45,463 nucleotides of DNA, taken from Verrucomicrobium sp. GTDB lineage: Bacteria > Verrucomicrobiota > Verrucomicrobiia > Limisphaerales > UBA9464. Numbering within the stretch: the stretch's first letter is position 1; every line of letters begins with the position of its first letter. This document shows positions 26,821 to 44,688 of this stretch, one piece after another. Where the stretch lies: positions 4,204 through 49,666 of the forward strand of contig JAJTFN010000019.1 of assembly GCA_021298285.1 (NCBI GenBank), written 5' to 3'. A model generated the notes under the pieces. That model searched no databases. It was not told the origin of the DNA and was given only the letters and a program-made list of their open reading frames with translations. The position numbers were made by a program, and so were the translations under genes.

Positions 26821-26855
26821 CCGGATGGTGAATGGTTTTCATCATCCGGATGAAA
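26821..26855. promoter_or_regulatory. Nested palindromes, candidate operator of the nitrate operon
   Basis: A perfect 12-bp palindrome TCATCCGGATGA (26842-26853) is overlapped by a TTTCATC...GATGAAA inverted repeat (26837-26843 and 26849-26855) and by CCGGATG (26821-26827) facing CATCCGG (26843-26849). They lie about 70-100 bp before the first start codon in DNA richer in A/T than its surroundings. This suggests a regulator-binding region; the regulator is unknown. Confidence 0.45.
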
Positions 26856-26875
26856 CCTTAGACCGCTTTCTTCGG

Positions 26876-26922: not shown

Positions 26923-28044
26923 ATGAGTCGTGTCACCGACAACCCGCTGGAACGGTCCCGGTCCCGCCATGCCGTCGGGTTTTCGGAGATCCGGGTGGGT
27001 TTCGTCCCGTTGAACGACTGCGCGCCGCTGATCGTCGCCCAGGAATACGGGCTCTTCGCACGACAGGGCCTGCAGGTCCGCCTGAGTCGGGAGCTGGGTT
27101 GGGCCTCGATCCGAAGCAAGCTGGCCAACGGGGAGTTGGAGGCGGCCCATGCGCCCTGCGGCCTGCCCCTGCACCTGAGCCTGGGCCTCGAAGGGCTCCC
27201 CACGCCGTGCTGCACCGCCCTGGTGCTCAATCTGAACGGCAATGCCATCACCCTGGCGCGTCGGTTCCATGATGATGGGGTCCACAGCGCCGAGGACCTC
27301 GCCCGGTGGGTCGTCCGCCGTCGAGGGGGTCCGATCACCCTGGGCACGGTCTCGACCTGCTCCACGCACTCGCGATTGCTCCGGGGATGGTTGTCGACGG
27401 CGAACATGGTCGAGGGTCGCGACTATCGGCTGGTCGTCGTGCCCCCCAGGCAAATCCTCACGGGCCTGAGTTCCGGGCACCTGGACGGGTATTGCGTCGG
27501 CGAACCCTGGAACTCCGAGGCCGTGCTGCGCGGATTCGGATACTGCCCGGCCACGAGCTGTTCGGTGGCGCCGCGTCATCCGGAGAAGGTGCTGGCGGTC
27601 GGCGGCCACTGGGCGGACGCCGAACCGGAGCAGCATGAGCGCTTGGTCGCGGCCCTGTTGGAGGCGTGCCGCATCTGCGACCTGCCCGGGGAGGCCGACA
27701 CGGTGATCGCGCTGCTCTCACGCCCGGAATACCTGCACCTGCCCGCCGAGTTCATCCGGCCGGGCTGGACCGGGGTGATCCCCACCTCGCCGGGCAGGTC
27801 CTGCACTCTCCCGGAGTTCAACTGCTTCCACCGCTTCGACACCAACGAGCCCAGCCCGGAGAAAGCGCATTGGATCCTCCGTGAACTCTACGGGGACCGG
27901 CCGACCGGGCCCATCCGGCCCGCGTGGCTCGGTTCGGTCTTCCGCATGGAGGTCTACGAGGCCGCCCGCCGCCGTCTTTCCGAGTCCGCTTCCCCGCACA
28001 AACCCCTCCCCAATCCCCATGAACCCCAGACCCTGTCGGCCTGA
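26923..28044 (+). CDS. NasS-like cytoplasmic nitrate/nitrite sensor (NrtA homologue without signal peptide)
   Basis: A 373-residue protein of the CmpA/NrtA binding-protein family. It aligns along its length with the NrtA encoded next: VGFVPLNDCAPLIVAQEYGLF, ELGWASIRSKL, GHLDGYCVGEPWNSEAV and RHPEKVL. It has no signal peptide, lipobox or Tat motif, so it should stay in the cytoplasm. That is the layout of NasS, the nitrate sensor that sequesters the RNA-binding antiterminator NasT in proteobacteria. No NasT/ANTAR gene is in the window. A GTG three codons earlier (26914) is an alternative start. The gene overlaps nrtA by 26 bp. The sensor role is inferred from homology and missing export signal. 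Confidence 0.72.
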   Translation: MSRVTDNPLERSRSRHAVGFSEIRVGFVPLNDCAPLIVAQEYGLFARQGLQVRLSRELGWASIRSKLANGELEAAHAPCGLPLHLSLGLEGLPTPCCTALVLNLNGNAITLARRFHDDGVHSAEDLARWVVRRRGGPITLGTVSTCSTHSRLLRGWLSTANMVEGRDYRLVVVPPRQILTGLSSGHLDGYCVGEPWNSEAVLRGFGYCPATSCSVAPRHPEKVLAVGGHWADAEPEQHERLVAALLEACRICDLPGEADTVIALLSRPEYLHLPAEFIRPGWTGVIPTSPGRSCTLPEFNCFHRFDTNEPSPEKAHWILRELYGDRPTGPIRPAWLGSVFRMEVYEAARRRLSESASPHKPLPNPHEPQTLSA

Positions 28045-29281
28045 AACCACCCGTCGTCACTTCCTCCGCACCACCGTCGCCGGATCCCTGCTGGCCGGCC
28101 TTCCCGCCGGTTGGACCGGTTCGGTGTACGCCGACGACTCGCCCGAGTCGCCGAATGTGCGCTTCGGCATCATCGCGCTGACCGACTGCTCTCCGATCGT
28201 CATCGCCCACGAGAAGGGGCTCTTCAAGAAACACGGCATCCAGTCCTCGATCTCGAAGGAGGCCAGTTGGGCGGTCATCCGGGACAAGCTCCAGACCGGC
28301 GACAACCAGGCCACCCACATGCTCATCGGCATGCCCATCGCATCGACCATGGGGCTGCTGGGTTCGGCCAAGAAGCCCATGGTCTTCCCGTGGATCCTGA
28401 GTCGCAACGGCCAGGCGATCACCCTCAAGTCCGAATTCCTGGGCAAGGTGCAGGAGGATCCCAAGGCGTTGAAGCCCTTCGTCGAGAAGGCCAAGTCCCT
28501 GGGCGAACCCATGACCTTCGCCATGACCTTCCCCCCGGGGACGCATGCCATGTGGTTGCGCTACTACCTCGCCGCCGGAGGCATCCACCCCGACAAGGAC
28601 GTCAACCTCATCACCATCCCGCCGCCCCAGATGGTCGCCAACATGAAGGTGGGCAAGATGGACGGGTTCTGTTTCGGCGAGCCGTGGAACGCCCGCGCGG
28701 TCAGCGACAAGATCGGCTTCACGGCCATCACCACCCAGAAGCTCTGGAAGGACCATCCCGAGAAGGTCTGCGCCTTCCTGGCCGAATACGCCGACAAGAA
28801 CCCGAAGACCGTGAAGGCCGTGCTCAAGGCCCTGCACGAGGCCTCGGTGTGGCTCGATGACCTGGGCAATCGCCCGGAGCAGTGCGACATCGTCAGCAAG
28901 CCCAGCTACGTGAACTGCCCGAAGGACGTGATCCTCGGCCGGCTCCTGGGCGACTACGACCTCGGAGACGGCCGGAAGTACAAGGATCCGTTCCCCATGA
29001 TCTTCCACGAGCGCAACTGCAACTATCCCCAGCCCAAGTACGTGGCCTGGTGGCTCAGCCAGTTGCGGCGCTGGGGGATGGTCACCGGCGCTCCCGACTA
29101 CGCCGGCATCGCGGCCAAGGTGGCCCGCACCGATCTCTACGAGGCGGCGATGAAGGAGATCGGGGCCGTCCATGGCGGGCGTGACGATCGCCCCGAGACG
29201 CTCTTCGACGGCATCCCCTTCGATCCCGCACAGCCCGAGGCCTATGCCAAGGCCTTCGCGGTGAAGAACCTCAAGGGCTGA
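28019..29281 (+). CDS. nrtA: Nitrate ABC transporter substrate-binding protein
   Basis: The periplasmic binding protein of a nitrate (or nitrite) ABC importer, 420 residues. The N-terminus carries a twin-arginine signal (TTRRHFLRT) followed by a hydrophobic stretch and a VYADD cleavage region, indicating Tat export. Family segments include FGIIALTDCSPIVIAHEKGLF, KEASWAVIRDKL, and GKMDGFCFGEPWNARAV. The CmpA/NrtA family also includes bicarbonate binders, but downstream nasA and nirA favour nitrate. The start ATG at 28019 lies inside the end of the sensor gene (26-bp overlap); the frame is open further upstream but without family sequence. Confidence 0.9.
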   Translation: MNPRPCRPETTRRHFLRTTVAGSLLAGLPAGWTGSVYADDSPESPNVRFGIIALTDCSPIVIAHEKGLFKKHGIQSSISKEASWAVIRDKLQTGDNQATHMLIGMPIASTMGLLGSAKKPMVFPWILSRNGQAITLKSEFLGKVQEDPKALKPFVEKAKSLGEPMTFAMTFPPGTHAMWLRYYLAAGGIHPDKDVNLITIPPPQMVANMKVGKMDGFCFGEPWNARAVSDKIGFTAITTQKLWKDHPEKVCAFLAEYADKNPKTVKAVLKALHEASVWLDDLGNRPEQCDIVSKPSYVNCPKDVILGRLLGDYDLGDGRKYKDPFPMIFHERNCNYPQPKYVAWWLSQLRRWGMVTGAPDYAGIAAKVARTDLYEAAMKEIGAVHGGRDDRPETLFDGIPFDPAQPEAYAKAFAVKNLKG

Positions 29282-29287
29282 CCCCTC

Positions 29288-30127
29288 ATGAAGAAGATCC
29301 ATTGGGAATCGGTGCTGATGCCGCTGGTGGGCATCGCCCTGACCCTGCTGGCCTGGCAGATGATCTCGGGCCGGACCGTGACCCGGAGCCTGGCCGACGG
29401 GACGGTCGAGGAGGTCAGGCTCGGTTGGGTCCAGGACCTGCCCGGTCCGGTCCAGACCTGGGAGAAGACCCGCAAGTACGTCGTGGAACCCTTCGCCAAA
29501 CGCGAGGAACTCGACCAGGGAATCCTGAGGTTCACGTGGTACTCGCTGGTGATCGTGGCCAAGGGCTACGCCATCGCCCTGATCCTGGGAACCCCGATGG
29601 GATTCCTCCTGGGTCTCTCGGCCACGTTCTCCAAGATGTTCGATCCGATCATCCAGGTGCTGCGACCGGTGTCGCCCCTGGCCTGGATGCCGCTGGGCGT
29701 GGTGCTCTTCGCCAATGCCGGCAAGAGCGCCAACGAGTTGGCGGCACTCTTCACCATCGCGGTCTGCGCCATGTGGCCGACCGTCCTCAACACCGCGGTC
29801 GGGGTCCGTGCCATCCCGCAGGATTACCTGAATGTGGCCCGCGTCCTGAAGCTCTCCCGGACCCAGACCCTCTTCCGGATCATGATCCCGGCCACCCTGC
29901 CGTACATGTTCACCGGCTACCGGTTGAGCCTGGGCATCGCCTGGCTGGTCATCGTGGCGGTGGAGATGCTGACCGGTCGCATCGGCATCGGGAACTTCCT
30001 CTGGAACGAATACAACAACGGCCTCTACACGAGCATCGTCCTCTGCATCGTGACCATCGGCCTGGTCGGCTTCTCGCTCGACCGGGCCATGAGCCTTCTG
30101 GAGCGCCGCTTCAAGGGAATCCTCTGA
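29288..30127 (+). CDS. nrtB: Nitrate ABC transporter permease
   Basis: A 279-residue inner-membrane permease of the NrtB/SsuC type, with an N-terminal helix, a hydrophilic loop (about 30-75) and five further helices. The EAA-like coupling loop is YLNVARVLKLSRTQTLFRIMIPATLPYMFTG shortened to the usual pattern (A-x-x-L-x-x-S near residue 185, then IMIPATLP). WMPLGVVLFANAGKSANE and LVIVAVEMLTGRIGIGNFLW are typical of nitrate permeases. It lies 6 bp after nrtA and 10 bp before the first ATPase gene. Confidence 0.92.
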   Translation: MKKIHWESVLMPLVGIALTLLAWQMISGRTVTRSLADGTVEEVRLGWVQDLPGPVQTWEKTRKYVVEPFAKREELDQGILRFTWYSLVIVAKGYAIALILGTPMGFLLGLSATFSKMFDPIIQVLRPVSPLAWMPLGVVLFANAGKSANELAALFTIAVCAMWPTVLNTAVGVRAIPQDYLNVARVLKLSRTQTLFRIMIPATLPYMFTGYRLSLGIAWLVIVAVEMLTGRIGIGNFLWNEYNNGLYTSIVLCIVTIGLVGFSLDRAMSLLERRFKGIL

Positions 30128-30137
30128 ACCGTTTCCC

Positions 30138-31055
30138 ATGTCCTTCCTTGTCCTAGACCGTGTTTCCAAGGGATTCGGGCCGCCCGAGGCGCGCCGGGAG
30201 GTCCTCCGCGGCGTGGATCTCTCCGTCGAGCAGGGCGAGATCGTCGCCATCGTGGGCTACTCGGGCGCCGGCAAATCCACCCTGCTGCACCTCGTCTCCG
30301 GCCTGCTGGGGCCCGACACCGGCAGCGTCCGCCTGGATGGTCGCACCATCGAGGGTCCGGGCCCCGACCGCGGGGTGGTCTTCCAGAACTACAGCCTGCT
30401 CCCCTGGTTGACCGTGGCCGAGAACATCCGCCTCGCCGTGGATTCGGTCTTCCCCGGGTGGACGGAGGCGCAGCGCGCCGAGCAGGTGGACCGTCACATC
30501 CATCTGGTCAATCTCACGCCGGCTCGGGACCGGCGCCCCGGGGAGTTGTCCGGAGGCATGCGTCAGCGCGTGTCCGTGGCCCGGGCCCTGGCCATGGATC
30601 CCCGGATCCTCCTGCTCGATGAACCGCTGGGCGCGCTCGATGCCCTCACGCGAGGGACCCTCCAGGACGAGATCTCCCGCATCTGCCGGGCCTCGGGCAA
30701 GACCGTCGTGCTGATCACCAACGATCCCGACGAGGGGATCCTGATGGCCGACCGGATCATCCCGCTCAGCGCCGGCCCGGGAGCCACCCTCGGGCCGTCG
30801 TTTCCGGTCGTCCTCGATCCCACGCGCGATCGGCGGGCCCTCAACCATGATCCCCGCTTCAAGGCGCTCCGCGCCGAGGTGGTCGCCTGGTTGATGGGCC
30901 CCGGGGCTCGCCCGGCGGTCTCCGTCTCCCGCAAGTTGATCCTGCCGGACCTCGAGCCGGAGGACCTCGAGATTCCCAGGTCCCTGATCGGCGGGCGCCG
31001 CCGGCCGCGGAGGCGATCCGAGGAGCGCCGCGAGACGGTCGACCTCAACCCCTAG
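30138..31055 (+). CDS. Nitrate ABC transporter ATP-binding protein 1 (H-loop Asn)
   Basis: An NrtC/NrtD-type ATPase of 305 residues. Walker A GYSGAGKST (40-48), Q-loop Gln83, signature LSGGMRQR, Walker B ILLLDEP with catalytic Glu162 and D-loop LGALD are all intact. The switch (H-loop) histidine is replaced by Asn195 in LITNDPDEG (codon AAC at 30720-30722), whereas its partner keeps His. The ending ADRIIPL...GPGATLGPSF is characteristic of nitrate transporter ATPases. The C-terminal 45 residues are basic (RRRPRRRSEERRE). It lacks the NrtA-like C-terminal domain of cyanobacterial NrtC. It probably forms a heterodimer with the next gene product. Confidence 0.9.
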   Translation: MSFLVLDRVSKGFGPPEARREVLRGVDLSVEQGEIVAIVGYSGAGKSTLLHLVSGLLGPDTGSVRLDGRTIEGPGPDRGVVFQNYSLLPWLTVAENIRLAVDSVFPGWTEAQRAEQVDRHIHLVNLTPARDRRPGELSGGMRQRVSVARALAMDPRILLLDEPLGALDALTRGTLQDEISRICRASGKTVVLITNDPDEGILMADRIIPLSAGPGATLGPSFPVVLDPTRDRRALNHDPRFKALRAEVVAWLMGPGARPAVSVSRKLILPDLEPEDLEIPRSLIGGRRRPRRRSEERRETVDLNP

Positions 31056-31061
31056 GCACCC

Positions 31062-31937
31062 ATGGCCGACCACGTCGAGATCTCCCACCTCAGCAAGGTC
31101 TTTCCGACCCCCAAGGGTCCGCTGCGCGTGGTGAAGGACTTCAACCTGCGCATCCGGCAGGGAGAATTCGTCACCCTCATCGGCCATTCGGGGTGCGGCA
31201 AGAGCACCGTCCTGTCGATCCTGGCCGGGTTGAGCGAGGCCTCGGCCGGCGGCATCGTCCTTGCCGGTCGCGAGCTCACCGGCCCGGGGCCGGACCGCGG
31301 GGTGGTCTTCCAGGCCCCCAACCTCCTCCCGTGGATGAGCGCCCTCGAGAACGTCCAGCTCGGGGTCGACCAGGTGTTCTACACCGCGTCCCGGGAGGAA
31401 CGCCGCCAGATCGCCGAGTACTACCTGACGGTGGTCGGATTGGGCGAGGCCCTGCACCAGCTCCCCTCCGAACTCAGCCAGGGGATGCGTCAGCGGGTGG
31501 GCATCGCGCGGGCCTTCGCGTTGTCTCCCAAGATGCTCCTGCTGGACGAACCCTTCGGGATGCTCGATTCGCTCACCCGCTTCGAGCTGCAGCAGGTGCT
31601 GCTCGACCTCTGGAACCGGACCCGCCTGACGGCGCTCATGGTGACGCATGATGTCGACGAGGCGCTGTTCCTGTCCGATCGGGTCGTGATGATGACCAAC
31701 GGCCCGGAGGCCGAGGTGGGCGAGATCCTGCAGGTCCCCTTCGCCCGACCGCGCCGACGCCAGGAATTGCTGGAGGATCCCGAGTACTACCGGCTCCGCG
31801 AGCAACTCATCGAGTTCCTCCATGTGCGTGCCTACACCCTCAAGGGACAGACACCCCGCGGGAGGGCCCCGGATGGAGGCCAGGGTGCATCTGCTGCGAC
31901 CCCGGCCGCTCCCCCTGTCGCCACCGCAGGCGCATGA
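31062..31937 (+). CDS. Nitrate ABC transporter ATP-binding protein 2
   Basis: The second ATPase of the importer, 291 residues. Walker A is GHSGCGKST (41-49), the signature LSQGMRQR (138-145), Walker B MLLLDEP, and the switch histidine His196 is present in MVTHDVDEA. The C-terminal 35 residues form a low-complexity Gly/Ala/Pro tail. It lies 6 bp after ATPase 1, with which it shares the [11 protein letters not shown]-loop region. The end overlaps an in-frame upstream ATG of the porin frame by 4 bp (31934). Confidence 0.92.
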
Positions 31938-31996
31938 CCGATCCCCGCTTTCCGAAACCCATCCACCCACCGCCCACCCGAATCGAACCCTCCCCG

Positions 31997-33595
31997 ATGA
32001 AACCCTCCGCGACATTCCTCCGCCTCGCCGCCATCACCCGCCTCGCCGCCCTTGTCCTGACCCCCGGCGCCGCCCACGCCGCGCCTCCCGGTTTCGACTG
32101 GGGTGTGACCACGCCGGTCGCGCCGTCGCCGGCCGGCTTCATCAACGACTGGCTCCGGCAGGACAATCCCTACCTCTCCTCCTGGAACCTCGGCGCCCTC
32201 TACTGGGGCCGCTATGAGATCAAGCAGAACGGCGGATTCACCGGCCCCGGTTCCCTGGCGGACTTCCGCACCGACACCGACAACGACAACAGCTACCTCC
32301 TCCAGAGGGTCCTCATCCGTGGAGGCTACACCGGTCGGTGGTTCGAGGTCTTCGCGCAGGGCCGCTCGAGCACGGTGACCGGTGACGACCGTTCCAGCAC
32401 GGGCAACGGCGTGACCCAGGCCAAGACCCTGAACGGCGTCGCCATCCCGGCCTATCCGGCGGCGCCGGCGGGGAGAGGCAGCAGCCCGGAGTCGGACGGT
32501 CCCATGGACCTGCACCAGGCCTATGTCTTCCTGGGCAACCACAAGGAGTTCCCCGTGTCGCTCAAGGTGGGGCGCCAGGAACTGCTCCTGGGCGAGCAAC
32601 GGATCGTCGGTCCGCTGGCCTGGAACAACATCGGCCGGCAGTGGGATGCGGCCAAGGTGCGCTGGCAGAACCCGTACTTCGCCGTGGAGGGGTGGAGTTC
32701 GATGGTGGTGATGCCCGACGACAACGGCTTCAACCGATCGAACCCGGACGAGATCTTCTCGGGTCTGCACCTCACCACGAAGGCCATCCCCAAGACCTGG
32801 ACCGAATTCTACCTCCTCGGCCGGAATGCCGGGCGCGATGCCAATGCGGGCAACCGGGGACTTGTCCCGGCCCCCTTCCGGCCGCCGGAGGCCCAGGACA
32901 TCTACACCGCGGGAACGTACGTCCGCAGTTCCACCAACGACTGGGTCAACGTCGACTGGGGTGCCCAGGCCTATTACCAGTTCGGCAACTTCGCCGATGC
33001 CCGCGAGGCCGCCGGGATGGGACCGCGGAGGGAACACCGCGCCTGGGCGGGAGTGCTCTCCGGCGGGTACACCTGGAAGGAATCGGAGCTCCAGCCGCGC
33101 CTGGGCCTGGAATACAGCCTGGCCAGCGGGGACAACGACCCCAACGACGGCACGCACGAGACCTTCGTCCACCTCTATCCCACCGGACATCTCTTCTATG
33201 GCTACGCCGACTTCGCCTCCTTCCAGAACCTGCACAACGTGCGCCTTCGCAGTTCCCTGCTCGCCACGCCCCGGGTGCGCGTCCAGCTCGAGGGGCACCT
33301 GAAGTGGTTGGCGACGGCCAACGACAACTTCTACAACGTCGCCGGGTTGCCCAGGGGTGGCCTGACCTACCAGGGTGCGGCCGCGCGTGGGACCGGTTAT
33401 GGGATCAATCCCGATGCCGGATCCTTCGTCGGCTCCGAGATCGACCTCGTGGTCACGTGGCAGGCCAGCAAGTACCTCGTGCTCGAAGCCGCCTACTGCC
33501 GGTTCCTCCGGGGCGACTACATCCGGGACTCGCTCTCGAAGGTGGGTTCCCAGGACGCCGACTACGTCTACGTCCAGGCGCAGGTGAACTTCTGA
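31997..33595 (+). CDS. Alginate-export-family outer-membrane porin
   Basis: A 532-residue beta-barrel protein with a signal peptide (hydrophobic LRLAAITRLAALVL, cleavage after AAHA). A barrel pattern of alternating aromatic strands follows, ending in C-terminal Phe (VYVQAQVNF), the outer-membrane insertion signal. Segments such as VGRQELLLGEQRIVG and QWDAAKVRW are typical of the AlgE-like (alginate export) porin domain found widely outside alginate producers. Inside this operon the likely role is passage of nitrate or nitrite across the outer membrane. The ATG at 31997 was chosen because it begins the signal peptide; one at 31934 would add 21 Pro-rich residues. Confidence 0.85.
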   Translation: MKPSATFLRLAAITRLAALVLTPGAAHAAPPGFDWGVTTPVAPSPAGFINDWLRQDNPYLSSWNLGALYWGRYEIKQNGGFTGPGSLADFRTDTDNDNSYLLQRVLIRGGYTGRWFEVFAQGRSSTVTGDDRSSTGNGVTQAKTLNGVAIPAYPAAPAGRGSSPESDGPMDLHQAYVFLGNHKEFPVSLKVGRQELLLGEQRIVGPLAWNNIGRQWDAAKVRWQNPYFAVEGWSSMVVMPDDNGFNRSNPDEIFSGLHLTTKAIPKTWTEFYLLGRNAGRDANAGNRGLVPAPFRPPEAQDIYTAGTYVRSSTNDWVNVDWGAQAYYQFGNFADAREAAGMGPRREHRAWAGVLSGGYTWKESELQPRLGLEYSLASGDNDPNDGTHETFVHLYPTGHLFYGYADFASFQNLHNVRLRSSLLATPRVRVQLEGHLKWLATANDNFYNVAGLPRGGLTYQGAAARGTGYGINPDAGSFVGSEIDLVVTWQASKYLVLEAAYCRFLRGDYIRDSLSKVGSQDADYVYVQAQVNF

Positions 33596-33616
33596 GCCGC
33601 GACCCCGATCTCCCGC

Positions 33617-35437
33617 ATGAACATCGTGCCGGAAACCGCTCCGTTCAGCAGGGAGCAGCGCGCATGGCTCAACGGGTTTCTGGCCGCCTCGCTCTTTGAC
33701 CGGCTGGGGTCCGTGGCCCCGGCGAGCGCCCCCTCCGGGTCGCCGCCGGTCGCCCGGCCCCGACCGCTCTGGATCGGAGTCGGGTCCCAGTCGGGCTCCG
33801 CCTCCGGACTGGCCAAGAAGGTGGCCAAGGCGGCCGAGTCCAAGGGTTTCGAGGTCACGTTGCGCGAGCTGGACCGCATCACCCCCGACGAGCTCTCCGG
33901 ATTGGAGCGCCTGCTGGTGGTGTGCTCGACCTGGGGCGATGGTGAACCTCCCGACAACGCCGCCGGCTTCTGGTCCCGACTCAGTGACGGTGCGGCATCC
34001 CGGCTGGAGTCGCTCCGGTATTCGGTGCTCGGCCTCGGCGATCGGAACTACGCCGATTTCTGCGGTGCCGCCCGCAGGATCGATGAACGCCTGGAGGCCC
34101 TGGGCGCCCGGCGCGTGGCGCCCCGCGCCGAATGCGACGGTGGGGATCGGGCTCCGTTCACGGCCTGGATGGAGGCCGTGTGGCCCTCCCTCGACAGGGT
34201 CGAGCCGGAGGGCGCGCCTCCCTCCGTCGCGTCGCCGATCCCCGGGCCGGACCCGGTGCCAGGGTCGGGCCCGAGCGCGGCGACACCGGCGACTGCCTGC
34301 CCTTGGACTCGCCGCCATCCCTATCCGGCCCGCCTGCGGGTGGCCCGGCGACTCAACGGCGAGGGATCGTCCAAGGACACACGGCACATCGAGATCGAGC
34401 TCGGAGATTCCTCCCTCGCCTACGAGGCCGGTGACGCCTTGGGGGTTCAGCCGTCGAATGACCCGGCCCTGGTCGAAGGGATCCTGCAGGCCCTCGGCCT
34501 GGATCCGGGGGTGCCGGTGTCCCTCGGCCCGTCGGTCCCCGGTGGTTCGATCGATCTTGGGGAAGCCCTCGCGAACCGGTGGGTGCTCACCCAGCCATCA
34601 CCGGCCCTCGTGAAGCGTTTGGCGGAACTGGCCCCCGGTTCCCTCATCGCCTCCCTCTCGGATCCGTCGCGGCGCCCGGACCTCGAATCCTGGATGGCCG
34701 GGCGCGATGTGTTGGACGCGCTCCGATCGGCCCCGGAGGCACGGCTCGACGCCACGGAATTGGGATCGCTGCTGCGGCCGCTCCAACCCCGCCTGTATTC
34801 CATCGCCTCCTCCCCGAAGGCCCACCCGGGTGAGGTGCACCTCACGGTGGGGACCGTCCGCTACGAAGCCCATGGTCGATCCCGCCTCGGGGTGGCGTCG
34901 TGCTGGTTGGCCGACCGGGTGGTCCCGGGGGTGACCCCGGTCCCGGTGTTCGTCCAGGTCAGCCGGCATTTCCGGCCGCCGAGCGACCCGTCACGGCCCA
35001 TGATCATGGTGGGCCCCGGCACCGGGATCGCCCCGTTCCGCGCCTTCCTGCAGGAACGCCGCGCCACCGGGGCCACCGGGAAGAACTGGCTCTTCTTCGG
35101 CGATCAGCGCCGGGCCACCGACTACCTGTATTCCTCGGAGCTGGACCCGCTGCACCGGGACGGCTTCCTCACCCGGCTCGATCTCGCCTTCAGTCGCGAC
35201 CAGGAGTCCAAGGTCTATGTCCAGGACCGCATGCGGGAACAGTCCGGGGCCCTGTGGCAGTGGCTGGAGGAGGGGGCGCATTTCTACGTCTGCGGCGATG
35301 CCCGACGCATGGCCAAGGATGTCGAGGCGGCCCTCCGGACGGTGATCCAGACGGCGGGGGGGCGCACCGAAGAGCAGGCTTCGGAGTACCTCGAAAGTCT
35401 CCGGTCCGAGGGGCGCTACCAGAAGGACGTGTACTGA
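33617..35437 (+). CDS. CysJ-like diflavin reductase (NADPH, FAD, FMN)
   Basis: A 606-residue sulfite-reductase-type flavoprotein. After an N-terminal segment (EQRAWLNGFLA) comes the flavodoxin domain (about 50-190; GSQSGSASGLAKKVA, STWGDGEPPDN, GLGDRNYADFCG). A Pro-rich linker follows, then the FAD domain (RLYSIASSP, 392-400; GVASCWLADR) and the NADPH domain (GPGTGIAPFRAFLQER, 467-482; VCGDARRMAKDVE), ending in Tyr606. CysJ passes NADPH electrons via FAD and FMN to a sirohaem protein. No cysI is present; the next gene is nirA, 29 bp on. It is therefore likely to feed nitrite reductase. Feeding NasA is an alternative. Confidence 0.88.
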   Translation: MNIVPETAPFSREQRAWLNGFLAASLFDRLGSVAPASAPSGSPPVARPRPLWIGVGSQSGSASGLAKKVAKAAESKGFEVTLRELDRITPDELSGLERLLVVCSTWGDGEPPDNAAGFWSRLSDGAASRLESLRYSVLGLGDRNYADFCGAARRIDERLEALGARRVAPRAECDGGDRAPFTAWMEAVWPSLDRVEPEGAPPSVASPIPGPDPVPGSGPSAATPATACPWTRRHPYPARLRVARRLNGEGSSKDTRHIEIELGDSSLAYEAGDALGVQPSNDPALVEGILQALGLDPGVPVSLGPSVPGGSIDLGEALANRWVLTQPSPALVKRLAELAPGSLIASLSDPSRRPDLESWMAGRDVLDALRSAPEARLDATELGSLLRPLQPRLYSIASSPKAHPGEVHLTVGTVRYEAHGRSRLGVASCWLADRVVPGVTPVPVFVQVSRHFRPPSDPSRPMIMVGPGTGIAPFRAFLQERRATGATGKNWLFFGDQRRATDYLYSSELDPLHRDGFLTRLDLAFSRDQESKVYVQDRMREQSGALWQWLEEGAHFYVCGDARRMAKDVEAALRTVIQTAGGRTEEQASEYLESLRSEGRYQKDVY

Positions 35438-35466
35438 AGACGCTCGATCCCGATGAACCCCATGCC

Positions 35467-37299
35467 ATGAGCCTCCCGTTCCAACAGATCTCCGGTCAAC
35501 CGCTCGATGCCGAGCAGACCGCCTACCTCGAGGGCCTCTTCGCAGGCCTCCGCAATCGCGGTCTCGGCTTCGGCGACCTCGTGCCGTCGGGCCCGGTTCC
35601 TGCCGCGTCGGCTGCGGCGGCGACTCCGGATCTGTCCGAGTTGACCGACCAGGAACGCATCAAGCGGGAACTCCACCCGCTGGACGCCTACTCGCTGCTG
35701 CTGCAACACGCGGCCTCCGATCAGGCCCCCGACCCGGACAACGCGTTCCGCTTCAAATGGCAGGGGCTCTTCTCCATGAGCCCGATGAAGGAGGGGTACA
35801 TGGCCCGACTCCGCATCCCGGGCGGCCAATTGACCTCGGCCCAGCTGCGTGAGATCGCCGCGGTGGCCGACAGCCTCACCACCGGTTACCTGCAGATCAC
35901 CACGCGGGCCAACCTGCAACTCCGGCATATCCGTTTCCAGGATGCGCCGGAATTCCTGCGGCGGATCCAGGCCGTCGGCCTGCACACCCGGGGCACCGGA
36001 GCCGACAACATCCGCAACCTGACCTGCGATCCGACCAGCGGGCTCGATCCGTCCGAGCGGTTGGAAACGCTGCCCCTGACCCTCCAGCTGGGGCAGCTCA
36101 TCCTGAACCACCGCGAGTTCTACGACCTGCCCCGGAAGTTCAACATCGCCTTCCATGGAGGTGGAACGATCCCCACGGTCGAGGACACCAACGACATCGG
36201 TTGGAAGGCCGTGCGGGTCTGGTCGCCGGCGGAGTGCCAGCCCGCGCCCGAGGGGTCCCATGACCTCCGCCCGGGAGACCTCGTGACCGCATCCGTGCCC
36301 TCGGGCCTGTATTTCCGGTGCCTGCTGGGCGGAGCGACGGGTCACAAGGCCTTCGCCCGGGACCTCGGGATCCTGGTGCCACCGGAGGAGGTCGTTCGGG
36401 TGACGGCCGCGATGGTCCGGGTCTATCTCGCGCATGGCGACCGCACCGACCGGAAGAGGGCCCGCCTCAAGCACCTGTTGGAGCATTGGACATTGGACCG
36501 TTTCCGCACGGAGACCGAGGCGCTGCTGGGTCGCCCGTTGCTTGGGATCCCCGAGGGATCCGAGGCCGCCGTCGCCCATGGCGACGATCCCGTCGCCACG
36601 ATGCATCCCCACCTCGGGGTCCATGCCCAACGTCAGGCGGGCCTGCACTGGATCGGTGTCGCGGTCCCCGTCGGACAGGTCTCCTCCCGCCAGTTGCGCA
36701 GGCTGGCCGAGCTGGCCGAGTGGTACGGGAGCGGCGAGGTCCGGTTGACCGTGTGGCAGAACCTGATCGTGCCGAACATCCCCGAGGCCTACGTCGAGAC
36801 GGTGAAGAAGGCCCTGGTGAAGGCGGGTCTCGACTGGAGATCGAGCGCCCTCCGGGGGGGATTCATCGCCTGCACCGGCAATCGGCATTGCCGGTTCGCC
36901 GCGTCCGACACCAAGGGACACGCCCTCCGGTTGATCGAATGGCTCGACTCCCGGGTGAGCCTGGATCAGCCGGTGAACATCCACCTGACCGGATGCCCGA
37001 ACTCCTGCGCCCAGCACTACATGGGCGACATCGGGCTGCTGGGCACGCAACTCAAGCGCGGAGGGCAGGCCCAGGAGGCCTACCATGTCTTCGTCGGAGG
37101 GGGATTCGGCCCGCGTCAGGCCATCGGGCGTGCGGTCTTCCAGGGGGTGATCCTCGAGGAATTGGGCCCGCTGCTGGAGAGGATGCTGAGGGTCTACCTC
37201 CGCGACCGGCACCCGGGAGAGACCTTCCAGGGCTTCACCTCGAGGCACGACCTCGGACGACTCCAGGAGTTGTTCGCGGACAGTCCGAGCCGTCCCTGA
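35467..37299 (+). CDS. nirA: NirA-type sirohaem nitrite (or sulfite) reductase
   Basis: A 610-residue enzyme of the nitrite/sulfite reductase family, catalysing six-electron reduction of nitrite to ammonium (or sulfite to sulfide). Duplicated ferredoxin-like half domains and sirohaem domains are recognisable. The [4Fe-4S]-sirohaem ligands are Cys469 and Cys475 (CTGNRHC) and Cys510 and Cys514 (TGCPNSC). An extra N-terminal EQTAYLEGLFAG segment resembles that of the preceding diflavin protein. Nitrite is favoured over sulfite because transporter and nitrate reductase genes flank it. The usual ferredoxin donor may be replaced by the diflavin protein. The start ATG at 35467 is the only suitable one in frame. 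Confidence 0.88.
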   Translation: MSLPFQQISGQPLDAEQTAYLEGLFAGLRNRGLGFGDLVPSGPVPAASAAAATPDLSELTDQERIKRELHPLDAYSLLLQHAASDQAPDPDNAFRFKWQGLFSMSPMKEGYMARLRIPGGQLTSAQLREIAAVADSLTTGYLQITTRANLQLRHIRFQDAPEFLRRIQAVGLHTRGTGADNIRNLTCDPTSGLDPSERLETLPLTLQLGQLILNHREFYDLPRKFNIAFHGGGTIPTVEDTNDIGWKAVRVWSPAECQPAPEGSHDLRPGDLVTASVPSGLYFRCLLGGATGHKAFARDLGILVPPEEVVRVTAAMVRVYLAHGDRTDRKRARLKHLLEHWTLDRFRTETEALLGRPLLGIPEGSEAAVAHGDDPVATMHPHLGVHAQRQAGLHWIGVAVPVGQVSSRQLRRLAELAEWYGSGEVRLTVWQNLIVPNIPEAYVETVKKALVKAGLDWRSSALRGGFIACTGNRHCRFAASDTKGHALRLIEWLDSRVSLDQPVNIHLTGCPNSCAQHYMGDIGLLGTQLKRGGQAQEAYHVFVGGGFGPRQAIGRAVFQGVILEELGPLLERMLRVYLRDRHPGETFQGFTSRHDLGRLQELFADSPSRP

Positions 37300-37315
37300 G
37301 CCCCTGTCCCGACCG

Positions 37316-38785
37316 GTGAACCTCCCGTCGCCATCGTCCGCAGCCACCGGTCCGGGGGACCGCCTCGAGACGTTGCTGGATGCGTTCGTGGCCGAGCAGC
37401 GGCGACTGACCGCCGTCGAGCGGTTCAGCCAGCGCCATGCCGATGCGCGTGCCCCGTTGCTGGAGAGCCGTTACCGGGCCCTGCTGCCGGCCACCCCTCC
37501 CGGGCCCGGGGAGCAGTACGCGTTCGAGGTCGACCTCGACCAGTGCTCCTCCTGCAAGGCCTGCGTCGTGGCCTGCCATTCGCTCAACGGGCTGGAACCC
37601 GAGGAATCCTGGCGCGAGATCCGTCTCCTGGTCGGTTCCCGTCCGGTTCCCCAAGCCCCCCGCCCGGAGGCGGTGACCCTCGCGGTCACGTCCGCCTGCC
37701 ACCATTGCGTGGACCCCGGTTGCCTGAAGGGGTGCCCGGTCCTGGCCTACGAGAAGGATCCCCTCACCGGCATCGTCCGCCATCTCGACGACCAGTGCAT
37801 CGGGTGCAGCTACTGCATCTTCACCTGCCCCTACGAGGTGCCGAAGTTCTCGGAATCCCGCGGCATCGTCCGCAAGTGCGACCTGTGCCAGGGGCGGCTC
37901 CAGGCGGGGGAGGCCCCGGCCTGCGTGCAGGCCTGCCCCAACGAAGCCATCCGGATCACGCGCGTCCCGGTGGCGGGCACGATCGATCGCTGTCGAGGCG
38001 AGGCATCGACCTCCGGCCATCGCGACGGCGGATGCTCCCTGCCCGGGATGCCCTCGGCCTCGATCACCGTGCCGTCGACGGTGTACCGCTCGAGGCGCCC
38101 GATGGACGGACTGGAGTCACGCCTGGTGTCCGGGACCCCGGGCCGGGTGGAGGCCCATTGGCCGTTGATCGCGATGCTGGTGCTGACCCAATGGGGTGGC
38201 GGGATCCTGGCCGCGGTGGCCCTGGGCACGGGAATGGCCGGGCGGATTCCCACGGTCAGGGACGCCGCGGTGGCCGCGCTGGGTTGCCTGTGGGTCCACG
38301 CCGGGTTGATCGCATCGGTGTTCCACCTGGGGCAGCCGCTCAAGGCGTGGCGCATCTGGATGGGGTGGAGGACCAGTTGGTTGAGCCGCGAGGCGTTGGC
38401 GCTGGGCGCCTTCTCGGCGGTTGCGCTGATCTTCACCGGGTGGACCGCCGGGCTGGCCCGGGTGCCGGGATTCCCGGCTTCGCCGCGTGTGTTCCAGGGC
38501 GCCGCCTCGATGCTGCTCGTGCTCCTGGTCCTGGCGACCGTGGCGCAGATCCAGGTCTACGCCGTCACCGGTCGCGTGCGGTGGCGTTCATGGCGCACCG
38601 GCCCGCGCTTCGCCGGAACCGTCCTGATGGGGTGCGGCGTGGGCGGCGGCCTGCTGGCGGGGACCTCGCCGGTGCCGGTCGTGGCCCTGCTGGTCCTGAC
38701 AGGTCTGTCCGTGTTCGAGCGCTGGAGGTTCTTTGCCGGGGGATCCCCGGTGGATGCCGATTCACCCGACCGAGAAATGCCATGA
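37316..38785 (+). CDS. DmsB-DmsC fusion: four-cluster ferredoxin and membrane anchor
   Basis: A 489-residue fusion. The N-terminal half has sixteen Cys in four groups (77/80/83/87, 128/131/136/140, 161/164/167/171, 188/191/203/207), the pattern of DmsB-type subunits with four [4Fe-4S] clusters. After a linker, residues 283-475 form about six hydrophobic helices with FHLGQPLKAWR and SWLSREAL, motifs of DmsC quinol-oxidising anchors; E. coli DmsC has about eight. No signal peptide is present, so the ferredoxin part stays cytoplasmic. It starts with GTG at 37316 and overlaps nasA by 4 bp (ATGA). It is expected to carry electrons from the quinol pool to NasA. Confidence 0.87.
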   Translation: MNLPSPSSAATGPGDRLETLLDAFVAEQRRLTAVERFSQRHADARAPLLESRYRALLPATPPGPGEQYAFEVDLDQCSSCKACVVACHSLNGLEPEESWREIRLLVGSRPVPQAPRPEAVTLAVTSACHHCVDPGCLKGCPVLAYEKDPLTGIVRHLDDQCIGCSYCIFTCPYEVPKFSESRGIVRKCDLCQGRLQAGEAPACVQACPNEAIRITRVPVAGTIDRCRGEASTSGHRDGGCSLPGMPSASITVPSTVYRSRRPMDGLESRLVSGTPGRVEAHWPLIAMLVLTQWGGGILAAVALGTGMAGRIPTVRDAAVAALGCLWVHAGLIASVFHLGQPLKAWRIWMGWRTSWLSREALALGAFSAVALIFTGWTAGLARVPGFPASPRVFQGAASMLLVLLVLATVAQIQVYAVTGRVRWRSWRTGPRFAGTVLMGCGVGGGLLAGTSPVPVVALLVLTGLSVFERWRFFAGGSPVDADSPDREMP

Positions 38786-41043
38786 GTCTTCCACGAATCC
38801 CCTGGAGGGCCTGGGATGGGCCGTTCACCGCCGACCTGGCCCGTGTGTCGGGCGGGTTCGGATTGGGCCAGGTGCCCGCCCGCCTGAAGCCCGACGGAAC
38901 CACCGGCCTGGTCTGCGGTTACTGCGCCACCGGGTGCGGGTTGACGGCCCACCTGGTCGATGGCGAGGCGGTCAACCTGAGCCCGGATCCGCGCTTTCCG
39001 GTGAATCAAGGCATGGCCTGCCCGAAGGGATGGGAGGCCTTGGCCGCCCTGGAGGCCCCTGATCGCGCCACGATGCCGATGCTGCGGAATCCTGAGACCG
39101 GTGCGATGGAACCGGTGAGCTGGCCCCACGCCCTCCAGACCTTCGTGTCACGGATGAAATCGGTGCAACAGAACTGGGGCCCGCAATCCATCGCGTTCCT
39201 GAGCACCGGCCAGATCTGCACCGAGGAGATGGCCCTGCTCGGCGCCCTCTTCAAGTTCGGCATGCGCGGTCTGCACTGCGACTCCAACACGCGCCAGTGC
39301 ATGGCGACGGCGCATGTCGCCTACAAGCAGAGTCTCGGCTTCGATGCCCCACCCTACACCTACGCCGATTTCGAGGAGTCGGATTGCCTGGTGTTCGTGG
39401 GTTCCAATCCTGCGGTCGCCCACCCGATCCTGTGGCAACGGGTGCTTCAGAACCGGCGCCATCCGGAGATCCTCGTGCTCGATCCGCGGCGGACGGAGAC
39501 CGCCATGGGCGCGACCCTCCACGTCCCGCTGGCCCCGAAGTCCGACCTGGTCCTGCTGTATGGCGTGGCCTCGGCGCTCATCCGTCGGGGGGCGGTGGAT
39601 CGCGCGTTCATCGACGCCCACACCCGGGGCTTCGAGGCGTTCGCGGCCGCTGTCAGCGGCTTCACCCCGGAACGGGTGTGCGCCGAGGCGAGGATCCCGC
39701 TCGATCTGTTCGAGACGCTGGTGGAGCGCATCGCGACCCGGGCCCGGGTCTCCTACTGGTGGACCATGGGGGTGAACCAGGGTCACGAGTCGACCCGCAC
39801 CGCCCAGGCGATCATCAACCTGGCGTTGATGACCGGGCAGATCGGCAAGCCCGGGACCGGGGCCAATTCCATCACCGGTCAATGCAACGCCATGGGGTCT
39901 CGCCTCTTCTCCAACGTGACCAACCTCTTCGGGGGGCGTGACTTTGCCGATCCGGCCGCCCGGCTCGAGGTGGAATCGCTCCTGGGGCTGCCTGCCGGCA
40001 CCGTGCCGACGGAGAATTCCTGGTCCTATGACCGCATCGTCGACGGGATCGAGTCCGGGGCGATCCGCGGCCTTTGGGTCATCGCCACGAACTCCTCGCA
40101 TTCCTGGATCCAGCAGCGCCGGTTCAACGAGCTGCTGGGTCGGCTGGAGTTCCTGGTGGTGCAGGATCTCTACACCACCACCGAGACCGTCCAGCGGGCG
40201 GATCTGTTGCTGCCGGCGGCCGGTTGGGGCGAGAAAGAGGGCACCTTCATCAACAGCGAACGCCGCCTGGGGTTGGTGAAACGTGTCCGCCGACCACCCG
40301 GCCAGGCCCTGTCCGATTTCCACATCTTCCGCCTGGTGGCGGAGGCCTGGGGTTGCGCCGACCTGTTCCGGGAATGGGTGACCCCGGAGACGGTCTTCGA
40401 AGTGCTCAAGCGGTTGAGCCGAGGTCGGCCGTGCGACATCACGGGCATCGATGGGTACCGTGCCATCGACGCGCTGGGTGGGATCCAATGGCCCTTCTCC
40501 GAGGCGATGCGGGATCGTGTCCTCGACCACGCCTCCGGCGGGTCCCTGGAGACGTTGCCCGAGACACGGGTGGCCGGGATCCGGGAGCGACGGCTCTTCG
40601 CCGACGGGTCTTTCCATACCGCCGACGGACGCGCCGTCTTCCATCATTCACCTCCGACGCCGGTGCCCGAGCCCACCGATGAGGCATACCCATGGGTGCT
40701 CTTGACCGGTCGGGGAACGAGTTCCCAGTGGCACACCAACACCCGGACCTCCAAATCCCCGGTGCTCCGGCAGCTCTACCCGGAGAACTGCTATGTGGAG
40801 ATCCACCCTGAGGATGCGGCGCGGATAGGACTCCAGGCCAAGGGCCGCGTGCGGGTGCGTTCGAGGCGGGCCGAGCTCTTGGCTGATGCCTGCATCACGC
40901 CCGCCGTCCAACCCGGGCAGGTGTTCATTCCCATGCATTACCGGGAGCTGAATCCGCTCACCCTCACGGTGGTCGATCCGCACTCCCGGCAACCGAGCTA
41001 CAAGTTCTGCGCCGTCGCCCTCGAGGCCCTGCCGCCGGGCTGA
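38782..41043 (+). CDS. nasA: Assimilatory nitrate reductase catalytic subunit (NasA/NarB type)
   Basis: A molybdopterin enzyme of 753 residues reducing nitrate to nitrite. Its N-terminal [4Fe-4S] site is Cys45, Cys48, Cys52 and Cys80 (CGYCATGC, ACPKG). Cys173 in DSNTRQCM fits the molybdenum ligand. WTMGVNQGHESTRTAQAIINL and GKPGTGANSITGQCNAMGS are typical of NasA/NarB. There is no Tat signal, so it is cytoplasmic, and no C-terminal [2Fe-2S] domain of the kind found in Klebsiella NasA. Electrons must therefore arrive from a separate protein, most simply the DmsBC fusion encoded by the overlapping upstream gene. The start at 38782 was chosen for that ATGA overlap and the family N-terminus. Confidence 0.92.
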   Translation: MSLPRIPWRAWDGPFTADLARVSGGFGLGQVPARLKPDGTTGLVCGYCATGCGLTAHLVDGEAVNLSPDPRFPVNQGMACPKGWEALAALEAPDRATMPMLRNPETGAMEPVSWPHALQTFVSRMKSVQQNWGPQSIAFLSTGQICTEEMALLGALFKFGMRGLHCDSNTRQCMATAHVAYKQSLGFDAPPYTYADFEESDCLVFVGSNPAVAHPILWQRVLQNRRHPEILVLDPRRTETAMGATLHVPLAPKSDLVLLYGVASALIRRGAVDRAFIDAHTRGFEAFAAAVSGFTPERVCAEARIPLDLFETLVERIATRARVSYWWTMGVNQGHESTRTAQAIINLALMTGQIGKPGTGANSITGQCNAMGSRLFSNVTNLFGGRDFADPAARLEVESLLGLPAGTVPTENSWSYDRIVDGIESGAIRGLWVIATNSSHSWIQQRRFNELLGRLEFLVVQDLYTTTETVQRADLLLPAAGWGEKEGTFINSERRLGLVKRVRRPPGQALSDFHIFRLVAEAWGCADLFREWVTPETVFEVLKRLSRGRPCDITGIDGYRAIDALGGIQWPFSEAMRDRVLDHASGGSLETLPETRVAGIRERRLFADGSFHTADGRAVFHHSPPTPVPEPTDEAYPWVLLTGRGTSSQWHTNTRTSKSPVLRQLYPENCYVEIHPEDAARIGLQAKGRVRVRSRRAELLADACITPAVQPGQVFIPMHYRELNPLTLTVVDPHSRQPSYKFCAVALEALPPG

Positions 41044-41136
41044 ACCCGACCTTCCGGGATCCACGGTCCGTTCCCGGCGCGCGGAGCGCTTTTGCGCTGC
41101 CGTTCCGGCCGTCTGCGGGGCAGGGTTCCCGACATC

Positions 41137-44100: not shown

Positions 44101-44688
44101 GTCGTCGACCGTCAGACGGTGCCGGCCGAGATCGTCGAGCGCCTCCGCCGATCCCCGGAGCCCAAGGTGCGGGAAGGTGCCCTGGCCGTATGGCCCGCCC
44201 CGCCGTCCGTTCCGGCCCCGGAGATCGCGCAGCGGATCCGCCACCTCGAGCGGGTGCTCCGAGAGGCTCCTGGCAATCCTTACACCGGGGAGGCCCTCTT
44301 CCAGCAGCGCTGTGCCGGCTGCCACCGGTTGTTCTTCAAGGGCGGATCGGTCGGGCCCGACCTCACCGCCTACCAGCGGGATCACCTCGGGACGCTCCTC
44401 CACAGCATCCTCGACCCGAGCGCCGAGATCCGCGAGGGCTACGCCTCGGTGGAGGTCGAGACCCGGGATGGCCGCACCTTGGCCGGTTTCCTCACCGAAC
44501 GGGACGCCCGCTCCACCACGGTCCGCACCCTTGATGGGCAGGATCAGGTGCTGTTGGCCGCCGACGTCCGCGAAGTCCGGCCGACCGGACGCAGCCTCAT
44601 GCCCGAGGGTCTGCTCGACGGCCTCGACGATCGTCAGTTGAGGGATTTCTTCGCCTACCTGCGCAGTTCGCAGCCGTTTTCCCGGTGA
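41137..44688 (+). CDS. PVC-type membrane-bound dehydrogenase with HEAT repeats and haem-binding domain
   Basis: An 1183-residue exported protein with signal peptide (LSLLLVGGFLLAGIPW, cleavage near LPADD). Order of parts: a jelly-roll, sugar-binding-like domain (about 25-190); a beta-propeller dehydrogenase-like domain of the Pirellula/Verrucomicrobium type (about 215-600, with VAQPTHFSFDARGRLWV, EDTDGDGFPDR and GLVWGPDGWIYGGQGS); an alpha-helical HEAT-like region (about 610-1020); and a haem-binding domain with CAGCH at residues 1059-1063. It is probably a periplasmic sugar or alcohol oxidase that passes electrons to a c-type haem; the substrate is unknown. It starts 93 bp after nasA and need not belong to the nitrate operon. 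An upstream in-frame ATG (41092) would add 15 residues ahead of the signal peptide. Confidence 0.85.
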   Translation: MPRVLSLLLVGGFLLAGIPWSLPADDATDAWRPVEVPGPIPAGPGWRWYRAWFKPHDSFFTPHERNLFAESVTLNLRGFSGAHEVFVNGESVGRGGAFPPQYRDGVAGNHRHKIRPGLLQKGRWNGLLIRAHHPDGPAGFQGEAPFVMDYFNEAILEGGWEWRPAGPSGTPSAVEVPVLAERPPRAAFDQYHESHRVLGEAQRFVPGPRKAPAETMALMKPAADLRVDLLLNEPEVAQPTHFSFDARGRLWVAQYRQYPYPAGARMISRDKYYRAHYDRVPEPPPRHTPGRDRITVHEDTDGDGFPDRHRVFLDGLNMANAVLPGRGGVWVMNTPYLLFFPDANGDDVPDGPPVVHLAGFGLEDTHSVANGLVWGPDGWIYGGQGSTTTSRVVRPGLDPEGAPGVHFEGCMVWRYHPVSREYELFAEGSGNVFGLELDGEGRLFSGHNGSETRGWHYQQGGYYLKQGVDPGKFGPPRNPHTFGQLPWMAPAAPFQRFTHLLSVVEGPALPPSRQGQLLWLDPLHNVVLATDRHRIGSTFGTRDLGTALHCGDEAFRPVYLANAPDGSVWIADFYEHYIAHGQHYQSQIDPTTGRLYRLRGADQPLLRDLRLDDQAPEALMAALSHSNRWHRLMAARELAGRISALPVPDRERWTGRLAGRLGSPDAPIAALWALHQAGALDEALAARLVAHPVPLIREWSVRLMGDARRIGMPLLQAWLDRLPHETDVRVRAQWAASARRLPAAQALPLLTALLAHDEDLSDPCVPLLCWWIVDSHWPAARPEILGLWKTDALWRRPLAREAVLSRLMRRCATEARRQDLLDAAWLLDRAPDEASVAALMTGFEEAFRGRDASALPEELVRALARRGKASLALRLRQRDPAAVSEALERWRLPAVSVAERAELIRTLADLQLPGLRALLSEALREGQPLPVRLAALAGLARDTDPAVATEVLGLLGPAAPAEVRTAALALLVSRPAWSLSLLEAMGRRVVDRQTVPAEIVERLRRSPEPKVREGALAVWPAPPSVPAPEIAQRIRHLERVLREAPGNPYTGEALFQQRCAGCHRLFFKGGSVGPDLTAYQRDHLGTLLHSILDPSAEIREGYASVEVETRDGRTLAGFLTERDARSTTVRTLDGQDQVLLAADVREVRPTGRSLMPEGLLDGLDDRQLRDFFAYLRSSQPFSR

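Follow-up and report, generated by a model that had tools for sequence, protein, structure and literature searches.

Putative quinol-fed assimilatory nitrate reductase encoded by nasA and a DmsB-DmsC fusion gene in Verrucomicrobiota and Planctomycetota

Known assimilatory (Nas) nitrate reductases accept electrons from NADH flavoproteins, ferredoxin or flavodoxin, and they are described as soluble enzymes that spend NAD(P)H or reduced ferredoxin. What, then, supplies a NasA whose gene overlaps one for a ferredoxin fused to a membrane anchor? This arrangement occurs in a stretch of 45,463 nucleotides from Verrucomicrobium sp. (contig JAJTFN010000019.1; hereafter the window), in which an operon-like run of ten nitrate assimilation genes on the forward strand (26923-41043) ends with (i) a fusion of a four-cluster ferredoxin, DmsB, to a membrane anchor with a quinol site, DmsC (37316..38785; TIGR02951 and PF04976), and (ii) nasA (38782..41043), identified by Pfam, motif, tree and predicted fold as encoding the catalytic subunit of a cytoplasmic nitrate reductase with a molybdenum bis-pyranopterin guanine dinucleotide cofactor (Mo-bisPGD). 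A preliminary description of the window had proposed that the operon encodes a quinol:nitrate assimilatory reductase facing the cytoplasm, a proposal that is supported by the co-occurrence of the two genes, their adjacency, the retained quinol residues and the charge bias of the anchor. On these sequence comparisons, we consider it highly probable that the final gene pair specifies a quinol:nitrate oxidoreductase that is bound to the membrane, faces the cytoplasm and serves nitrogen assimilation; in this bacterium, nitrate used for growth appears to be reduced by an enzyme attached to the cytoplasmic side of its membrane and probably fed by quinols of the respiratory chain.

Co-occurrence and order of nasA and the fusion gene

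Two samples were searched for both proteins: 288 genomes of the window's phylum, which we infer to be Verrucomicrobiota, the window's own genome included; and 199 genomes from Planctomycetota, the phylum to which Adhaeretor mobilis belongs. NasA matches of at least 722 bits were found in 32 genomes of the first sample, and fusion matches of at least 297 bits in the identical 32; in the second, minimum scores of 885 bits for NasA and 264 bits for the fusion each selected the same 13 genomes. For this main clade, the 45 genomes with NasA are the 45 with the fusion, the NasA matches of three of the 32 (G134, G240 and G243) reading through one stop. In a second clade (NasA 430–540 bits, fusion 192–223 bits), all six genomes carry both genes on one contig, namely an identical set of five in the second sample and G159 in the first. 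This second clade is not separable by score, as a lower-type copy in G194 also reaches 430 bits, and was recognized partly through the fusion, but in the sequence tree its NasA proteins group as a single clade (support 100/99). NasA and the fusion thus occur together in all 51 carriers among the 487 genomes. Among genomes with lower NasA-like matches only, the fusion was found in none of 22 in the first sample (expectation (E) value thresholds 1e-60 for NasA and 1e-20 for the fusion) and in none of 19 in the second (1e-100 and 1e-25). A 255-residue NasA fragment containing a stop, in G160, is likewise without a fusion match. Near-identical fusions are present at G277:C55 and in Haloferula rosea (L061).

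A scan of an 84,980-species collection yielded at least 565 stretches encoding relatives of the fusion, of which the best 80 were kept, so that the locus sample leans to close kin; 110 fusion loci, the window's included, were compared, with gene starts picked by script. The tabulation of neighbors that the preliminary description had called for places NasA next to the fusion, downstream and on the same strand, in 97 of the 110 loci (90 of 103 without seven near-duplicates), the 97 including the broken locus L072. The gap between the two genes is −4 to +45 nucleotides in 87 loci, and 49 of the 110 have the identical four-nucleotide overlap; in the window, where an overlap had been noted, it reads ATGA, between the nasA start (38782) and the fusion stop (38785). 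Nine of the 13 loci without NasA downstream end within 1.3 kb, and four (L037, L068, L075 and L104) run on for 3.8–7.7 kb. The genomes of L037, L068, L075, L104 and L070 encode the same NasA elsewhere (58–69% identity), and G178 and G251 also carry NasA away from the fusion. In L128 and L131, NasA away from the fusion adjoins a gene that by eye resembles one for a MOSC-domain (molybdenum cofactor) protein.

According to the record titles, the loci belong to Verrucomicrobiota, Planctomycetota (Adhaeretor, Rhodopirellula, Stieleria) and Myxococcota (Sorangium cellulosum, L089). Seven titles (L040, L046, L047, L050, L056, L057 and L062; Proteobacteria, Akkermansia muciniphila, Klebsiella pneumoniae) seem ill-fitting. 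A single frame joining DmsBC and NasA in a draft of Chthoniobacter flavus (L072, 7989-11765) was rejected as a real fusion, being due to a frame break at the end of DmsC; L099 (in DmsC) and L088 (at the start of NasA) also look broken.

The catalytic subunit and its putative membrane anchor

Judged by its motifs, NasA is the catalytic subunit of a cytoplasmic nitrate reductase. Motif comparison on the forward strand locates the molybdenum ligand in the segment TRQCM (Cys173-Met174; 39289..39303) and an active-site segment GQCNAMGSR (residues 366–374; 39877..39903), giving the Cys-Met pair and the NAMG segment of a nitrate reductase molybdenum site. RQCM is found in all 86 NasA relatives and GQCNAMGSR in 80 of the 86, partial sequences counted. 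Cys-Met at the ligand is shared with Escherichia coli NapA, whereas the two formate dehydrogenases compared have Cys/Sec-His, and another NasA-family match in the window's genome, an NAD-type formate dehydrogenase subunit, has Cys-His and RGQNN. NCBIfam models score NasA at 438 bits for NasA_Halo (1000 needed), 348 for NasC (1100) and 427 for the formate dehydrogenase alpha subunit (666); all three scores fall below the curated equivalog cut-offs, and its clade has no curated model in the list used. With 438 and 427 bits so near to one another, an identity as formate dehydrogenase was weighed and rejected, mainly on the motif, with the tree in support: NasA branches with the Nas and Nap sequences and is separated from FdhF and from the formate dehydrogenase of its own genome (support 92/90, not starred). 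Desulfovibrio NapA is the top Protein Data Bank (PDB) sequence match (350.7 bits) and the best match of the predicted model (mean predicted local distance difference test (pLDDT) 89; template modeling (TM) score 0.85–0.86 by query, 0.89 by target). Formate dehydrogenases, however, come next at 0.82–0.83 by query, so that the fold is weak evidence for the identity of NasA.

The preliminary description had also stated that NasA lacks both a twin-arginine translocation (Tat) signal and a [2Fe-2S] domain, and so we found it. No twin-arginine leader is visible in the window's NasA, and a Pfam scan returned only Molybdop_Fe4S4, Molybdopterin and Molydop_binding, with no BFD/[2Fe-2S] or flavoprotein domain. 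A Tat-motif scan of the N-termini of its relatives flagged only L073 and its near-duplicate L078 (MRRLLKQS, without a hydrophobic stretch). Of five lower NasA relatives scanned, two (L167 and L175) have a flavin adenine dinucleotide (FAD) reductase and a BFD [2Fe-2S] domain in the chain. Some nitrate reductases not paired with the fusion thus possess an electron input of their own, the Cetobacterium enzyme being adjoined by a 4Fe-4S and an FAD protein. Two genomes, G194 (L167) and G211, carry a DmsBC-linked NasA together with a lower-type copy, which in G194 is the one with FAD and BFD domains. Sequence comparison further reveals an N-terminal extension of 44 residues ahead of the first cluster cysteine (38782..38913, forward strand). 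This segment measures 38–69 residues in the main NasA clade and 42–63 in the second, as against 7–29 in eight of ten lower relatives (37 and 55 in the remaining two), and we suggest it as a candidate contact for DmsB.

The fusion matches DmsB over residues 67–215 (37514..37960, forward strand; TIGR02951, 132.1 bits, below the curated cut-off of 214.1), with 16 cysteines in four groups, and DmsC over residues 281–467 (PF04976, 44.6 bits, cut-off 22.3), the DmsC domain (38156..38737, forward strand) having six predicted membrane helices in the AlphaFold2 model (282–306, 314–338, 355–377, 390–416, 425–448 and 452–474). A NarI-type domain is not among its Pfam matches. We compared 99 non-redundant fusions, these being the 110 loci less L048, L072, L093 and L099, whose frames are open or broken, and the seven near-duplicates. 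All 16 cysteines, the pattern of four [4Fe-4S] clusters, are invariant in the 99. The quinol site of E. coli DmsC comprises Ser62, His65, Ser82 and Glu87, with replacement of His65 blocking quinol oxidation and Glu87 also mattering, according to the passages on DmsC in a review of NrfD-like anchors (PMC8076601). The equivalent residues of the fusion are Ser334, His337, Ser354 and Glu359 (38315..38392, forward strand), of which the last three are invariant in all 99. Foldseek matched the window's fusion model to FdnH and ArrB, and its membrane part to PsrC with menaquinone (TM score 0.53 by target), FdnH alone passing an E value of 0.001. A 32% DmsB-like match in the window's own genome (L002) was not counted as a fusion.

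Loop charges, counted between helices 1 and 5, could be parsed in 94 of the 99 fusions (all but L043, L057, L058, L074 and L079) with the final anchored version of the topology script, an earlier anchored version having parsed four. In every one of the 94, positive charge lies on the cluster side: Lys and Arg average 8.0 in loops 2 and 4 versus 1.4 in loops 1 and 3. E. coli DmsC, the sole control, has the opposite bias (3 on the cluster side versus 6). Under the positive-inside rule, these charges support a cluster side, and with it a quinol site, that faces the cytoplasm, opposite to E. coli DmsC; such a placement fits a NasA without a Tat signal and is indirect evidence against the periplasmic orientation of the Tat-exported DmsABC.

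An alignment of the relatives, read by eye, shows eight DmsC helices. The window's anchor departs from this eight-helix, two-bundle form by about two central helices, a feature absent from the preliminary description: at a junction without helix 6, the following loop and helix 7 (38669..38719, forward strand), it has 12 residues versus at least 65 in 92 of the 99 fusions. Between window residues 455 and 468, the window and its nearest kin, L032, L033 and L034, have 11–12 residues and L035 has 34, while L057 (0) and L069 (12) are truncated frames close to the end of a contig. As the short DmsC is common to four assemblies, it is not a slip of one of them. Relative to L032–L034, the ratio of non-synonymous to synonymous substitution rates is 0.25–0.29 for the DmsC part and 0.045–0.066 for DmsB, synonymous sites being near saturation for L032 and L034, which indicates purifying selection on both. 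The short anchor keeps both the first bundle, which holds the quinol site, and the arginine of helix 8 (R469; Arg in 95 of 99). The second bundle of NrfD-like anchors is assigned one putative ion half-channel, and in DmsC and SoeC such half-channels are difficult to delineate (PMC8076601, in its passages on these anchors). A lineage without the center of this bundle argues that ion movement through it would not be needed for the job of NasA-DmsBC, and the short DmsC may serve as a natural test of the role of the second bundle in NrfD-like anchors.

Electron partners

In the mechanism that we propose, quinol, probably menaquinol, would be oxidized in the first helix bundle of DmsC at a site facing the cytoplasm, and two electrons would pass through the four [4Fe-4S] clusters of DmsB to the NasA cluster and on to Mo-bisPGD, where nitrate would be reduced to nitrite. 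With protons released and taken up on the same side, the step would be electroneutral. The gain would be that assimilatory electrons come through the quinone pool (and any upstream proton-pumping dehydrogenase) at no direct cost in NAD(P)H. Nitrite would then be reduced by the NirA-family sirohaem nitrite reductase (Nir), probably with NADPH, through a CysJ-type flavoprotein. Both are encoded immediately upstream on the forward strand. The CysJ-type diflavin reductase (33617..35437; Flavodoxin_1, FAD_binding_1 and NAD_binding_1 in Pfam) scores 591.3 bits with TIGR01931 (below its cut-off of 668.15) and 502.1 with NF004859 (above 432), and is probably the NADPH donor of Nir; Nir itself (35467..37299) scores 691.9 bits with NF007126 (above 523), the profile scan having begun at 35461 and the gene start being the in-frame ATG at 35467. 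In L004, L010, L018 and L021, only the flavodoxin half of CysJ is present, between Nir and DmsBC, which suggests a flavodoxin donor for Nir.

Several observations weigh against a quinol-fed NasA. The genome searches scored the best few candidates in each genome, so that absences are less sure than presences, and one genome of the second sample (G492) matched in the DmsB part only (open frame 225). Three of the five lower NasA relatives (L166, L168 and L170) are also without an in-chain donor, so that this lack is not peculiar to the fusion-linked clade. The equivalent of Ser62 is variable (Ser in 66 of 99 fusions); the fusion model has a mean pLDDT of 67, with 144 residues below 50, many of them in the Fe-S part; and a simple helix-finder script placed the cluster side in the cytoplasm in merely 82 of 99 fusions, the other 17 being ties or reversals that we put down to missed helices and slipped parity. 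The NasA of Cetobacterium, which is adjoined by a 4Fe-4S protein and an FAD oxidoreductase, branches beside the main clade with no DmsBC next to its gene, and a single clade of all fusion-linked NasA was rejected in the approximately unbiased test (p-AU 8.5e-7), with the caveats of long branches and of a group named after the tree was seen. Rejection of a single clade implies either two separate gains of the module or, in the line of Cetobacterium, its loss and replacement. Finally, the CysJ-type flavoprotein of the operon could also feed NasA, and in L037, L068, L075 and L104 NasA does not adjoin the fusion and Nir is still upstream (in L075 with a flavodoxin-like gene in between), so that in some cases it is the association with Nir that has been retained.

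This last point, together with the position of Nir directly upstream of the fusion in many loci, the window included, could mean that DmsBC feeds the nitrite reductase and not NasA. We consider this very improbable. Nir and CysJ may be upstream, downstream or not found, against a NasA that is downstream in the large majority; among 28 non-redundant loci flanked by 7 kb or more of sequence in both directions, NasA was found in 26, Nir in 22 and CysJ in 19 (17 at full length). Across 38 loci in which all three proteins were long enough, distances among fusions track those among NasA (r 0.71, Mantel p 0.001), and the partial correlation of fusion and NasA given Nir is 0.53, as opposed to 0.19 for fusion and Nir given NasA. 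Presence of the fusion tracks NasA genome by genome, and the DmsB part has as its five top sequence matches in the PDB proteins that we take to be partners of molybdoenzymes. Quinols are, moreover, poor donors for sirohaem nitrite reduction. Quinol-linked nitrate reductases, for their part, are usually respiratory (NarGHI and NapABC), and the complex might accordingly serve nitrate respiration in the cytoplasm and have no more than its operon in common with the assimilation genes. To this we assign a very slight probability, since its company is assimilatory in kind (a nitrate ABC transporter, a NirA-family enzyme and a diflavin reductase), and since a quinol site facing the cytoplasm, as the loop charges indicate, would by itself add no proton-motive force.

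The third alternative, that NasA is fed by NADPH via the CysJ-type flavoprotein (or by flavodoxin or ferredoxin), with DmsBC a mere anchor or overflow valve, is somewhat less remote, though still unlikely. It draws on the presence of the diflavin reductase in the operon, on the flavodoxin part found alone beside Nir in some relatives, and on CysJ-type domains fused to Nas in other bacteria, as excerpts of PMC4013037 describe. Its difficulties are that CysJ accompanies well-flanked fusions less often than NasA does, that in six loci (L058, L076, L086, L097, L099 and L101) NasA and the fusion are present but neither Nir nor CysJ was matched, and that invariant quinol residues would be needless in a mere anchor. 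The earlier claim that no NasC/NasB-type partner is present is affected accordingly: NasA has no flavin or [2Fe-2S] domain, but a CysJ-type flavoprotein is encoded in the operon, and the lack of an NAD(P)H-type partner can be upheld only on the condition that this flavoprotein works for the nitrite reductase.

The operon and its place among known systems

Profile matches place the nitrate assimilation genes on the forward strand over the extent given in the preliminary description. The run opens with an NMT1_2 substrate-binding-type protein (26923..28044, ATG at 26923; PF13379, 221.8 bits), for which no signal peptide was seen by eye and which is a candidate cytoplasmic nitrate sensor of the NasS kind. 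No ANTAR/NasT partner was found in the genome, but control genomes were equally silent in the same search, so nothing follows from this. The remaining upstream genes, all on the same strand, encode an NrtA-like nitrate-binding protein with a twin-arginine leader, TTRRHFLRT (28019..29281, start picked by eye; PF13379, 304.7 bits); the nitrate ABC transporter permease NrtB (29288..30127; TIGR01183, 222.6 bits, above the cut-off of 209.05); two transporter ATPases of the NrtC/D type (30138..31055 and 31062..31937; TIGR01184, 280.5 and 326.8 bits, just below and above the cut-off of 291.8, respectively); and an outer-membrane porin of the Alginate_exp family (31934..33595; PF13372, 165.5 bits). 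An imperfect palindrome, GGTTTTCATCatCCGGATGAAACC (26836-26859), lies directly 5' of the operon and is a possible operator. Downstream, 41092-44688 encodes a large protein, presumably of the PVC membrane-bound dehydrogenase/CxxCH kind, and a similar gene directly follows DmsBC in L037. Rfam gave one family match, a tRNA. The source genome is 88.9% complete in 244 contigs, and the end of one of these (G000:C18) repeats the end of NasA at 100%, which we take for an assembly overlap.

Like NarGHI, the predicted complex would be a cytoplasmic quinol:nitrate reductase with a four-cluster subunit, but NarGHI belongs to a different catalytic clade and has a haem-bearing anchor, NarI. The soluble enzymes NasA, NasC and NarB resemble the window's NasA in catalytic subunit, by motif and tree, and in their nitrate assimilation setting, and differ from it in their soluble donors. 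A phylogeny of the DMSO reductase family (PMC7331816) treats NasA/NasC as one clade with AioA, NapA and a single lineage of formate dehydrogenases, and reports for none of its members an association with canonical four-cluster or membrane-anchor subunits, a generalization that a quinol-fed NasA-DmsBC would contradict. E. coli DmsABC shares the DmsB-type cluster pattern and the retained His65, Ser82 and Glu87, but DmsA has a Tat-type leader, the loop charge bias is opposite, and the complex faces the periplasm (PMC8076601, as excerpted). With a Nas protein as catalytic subunit, the predicted complex would work in the manner of DmsABC and SoeABC. The precedent for an inverted anchor, itself hypothesized, is the sulfite:quinone oxidoreductase SoeABC of Allochromatium and Aquifex, which combines a Mo-bisPGD subunit, a four-cluster subunit and an NrfD/DmsC-type anchor. 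In the same excerpts, SoeC shares His65, Ser82 and Glu87 with DmsC, and the SoeABC anchor is hypothesized to be turned towards the cytoplasm, its quinone site being inverted (PMC8076601). SoeABC, however, consists of three separate subunits and oxidizes sulfite, whereas the window has a fusion of B with C and a catalytic subunit of the Nas kind, and quinol oxidation is expected.

Among the open-literature matches listed, with subscription papers and preprints outside this scope, there is no description of the pairing. In the parts of these sources covered, the review of NrfD-like anchors from 2021 (PMC8076601) nowhere uses the phrase "nitrate reductase", a later superfamily paper (PMC10100899) does not mention the pairing, a verrucomicrobial genome paper predicts a cytoplasmic NasA with no mention of it (PMC6688271), and no description was found in PMC10609526 or PMC4378227.

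The pair is recurrent in Verrucomicrobiota, Planctomycetota and myxobacteria, not confined to one genome, and what is new is the electron-input variant of a known enzyme. We regard it as likely, from the comparisons above, that NasA-DmsBC represents a further class of assimilatory nitrate reductase, with an inverted, quinol-drawing module for which a six-helix DmsC may suffice. This class predicts nitrate reduction that is membrane-bound, quinol-dependent and inhibitor-sensitive during nitrogen assimilation. If it is real, nitrogen assimilation would be tied to respiration in these bacteria, and both the energetic cost ascribed to nitrate use and the regulation attributed to it would change in two large environmental phyla.

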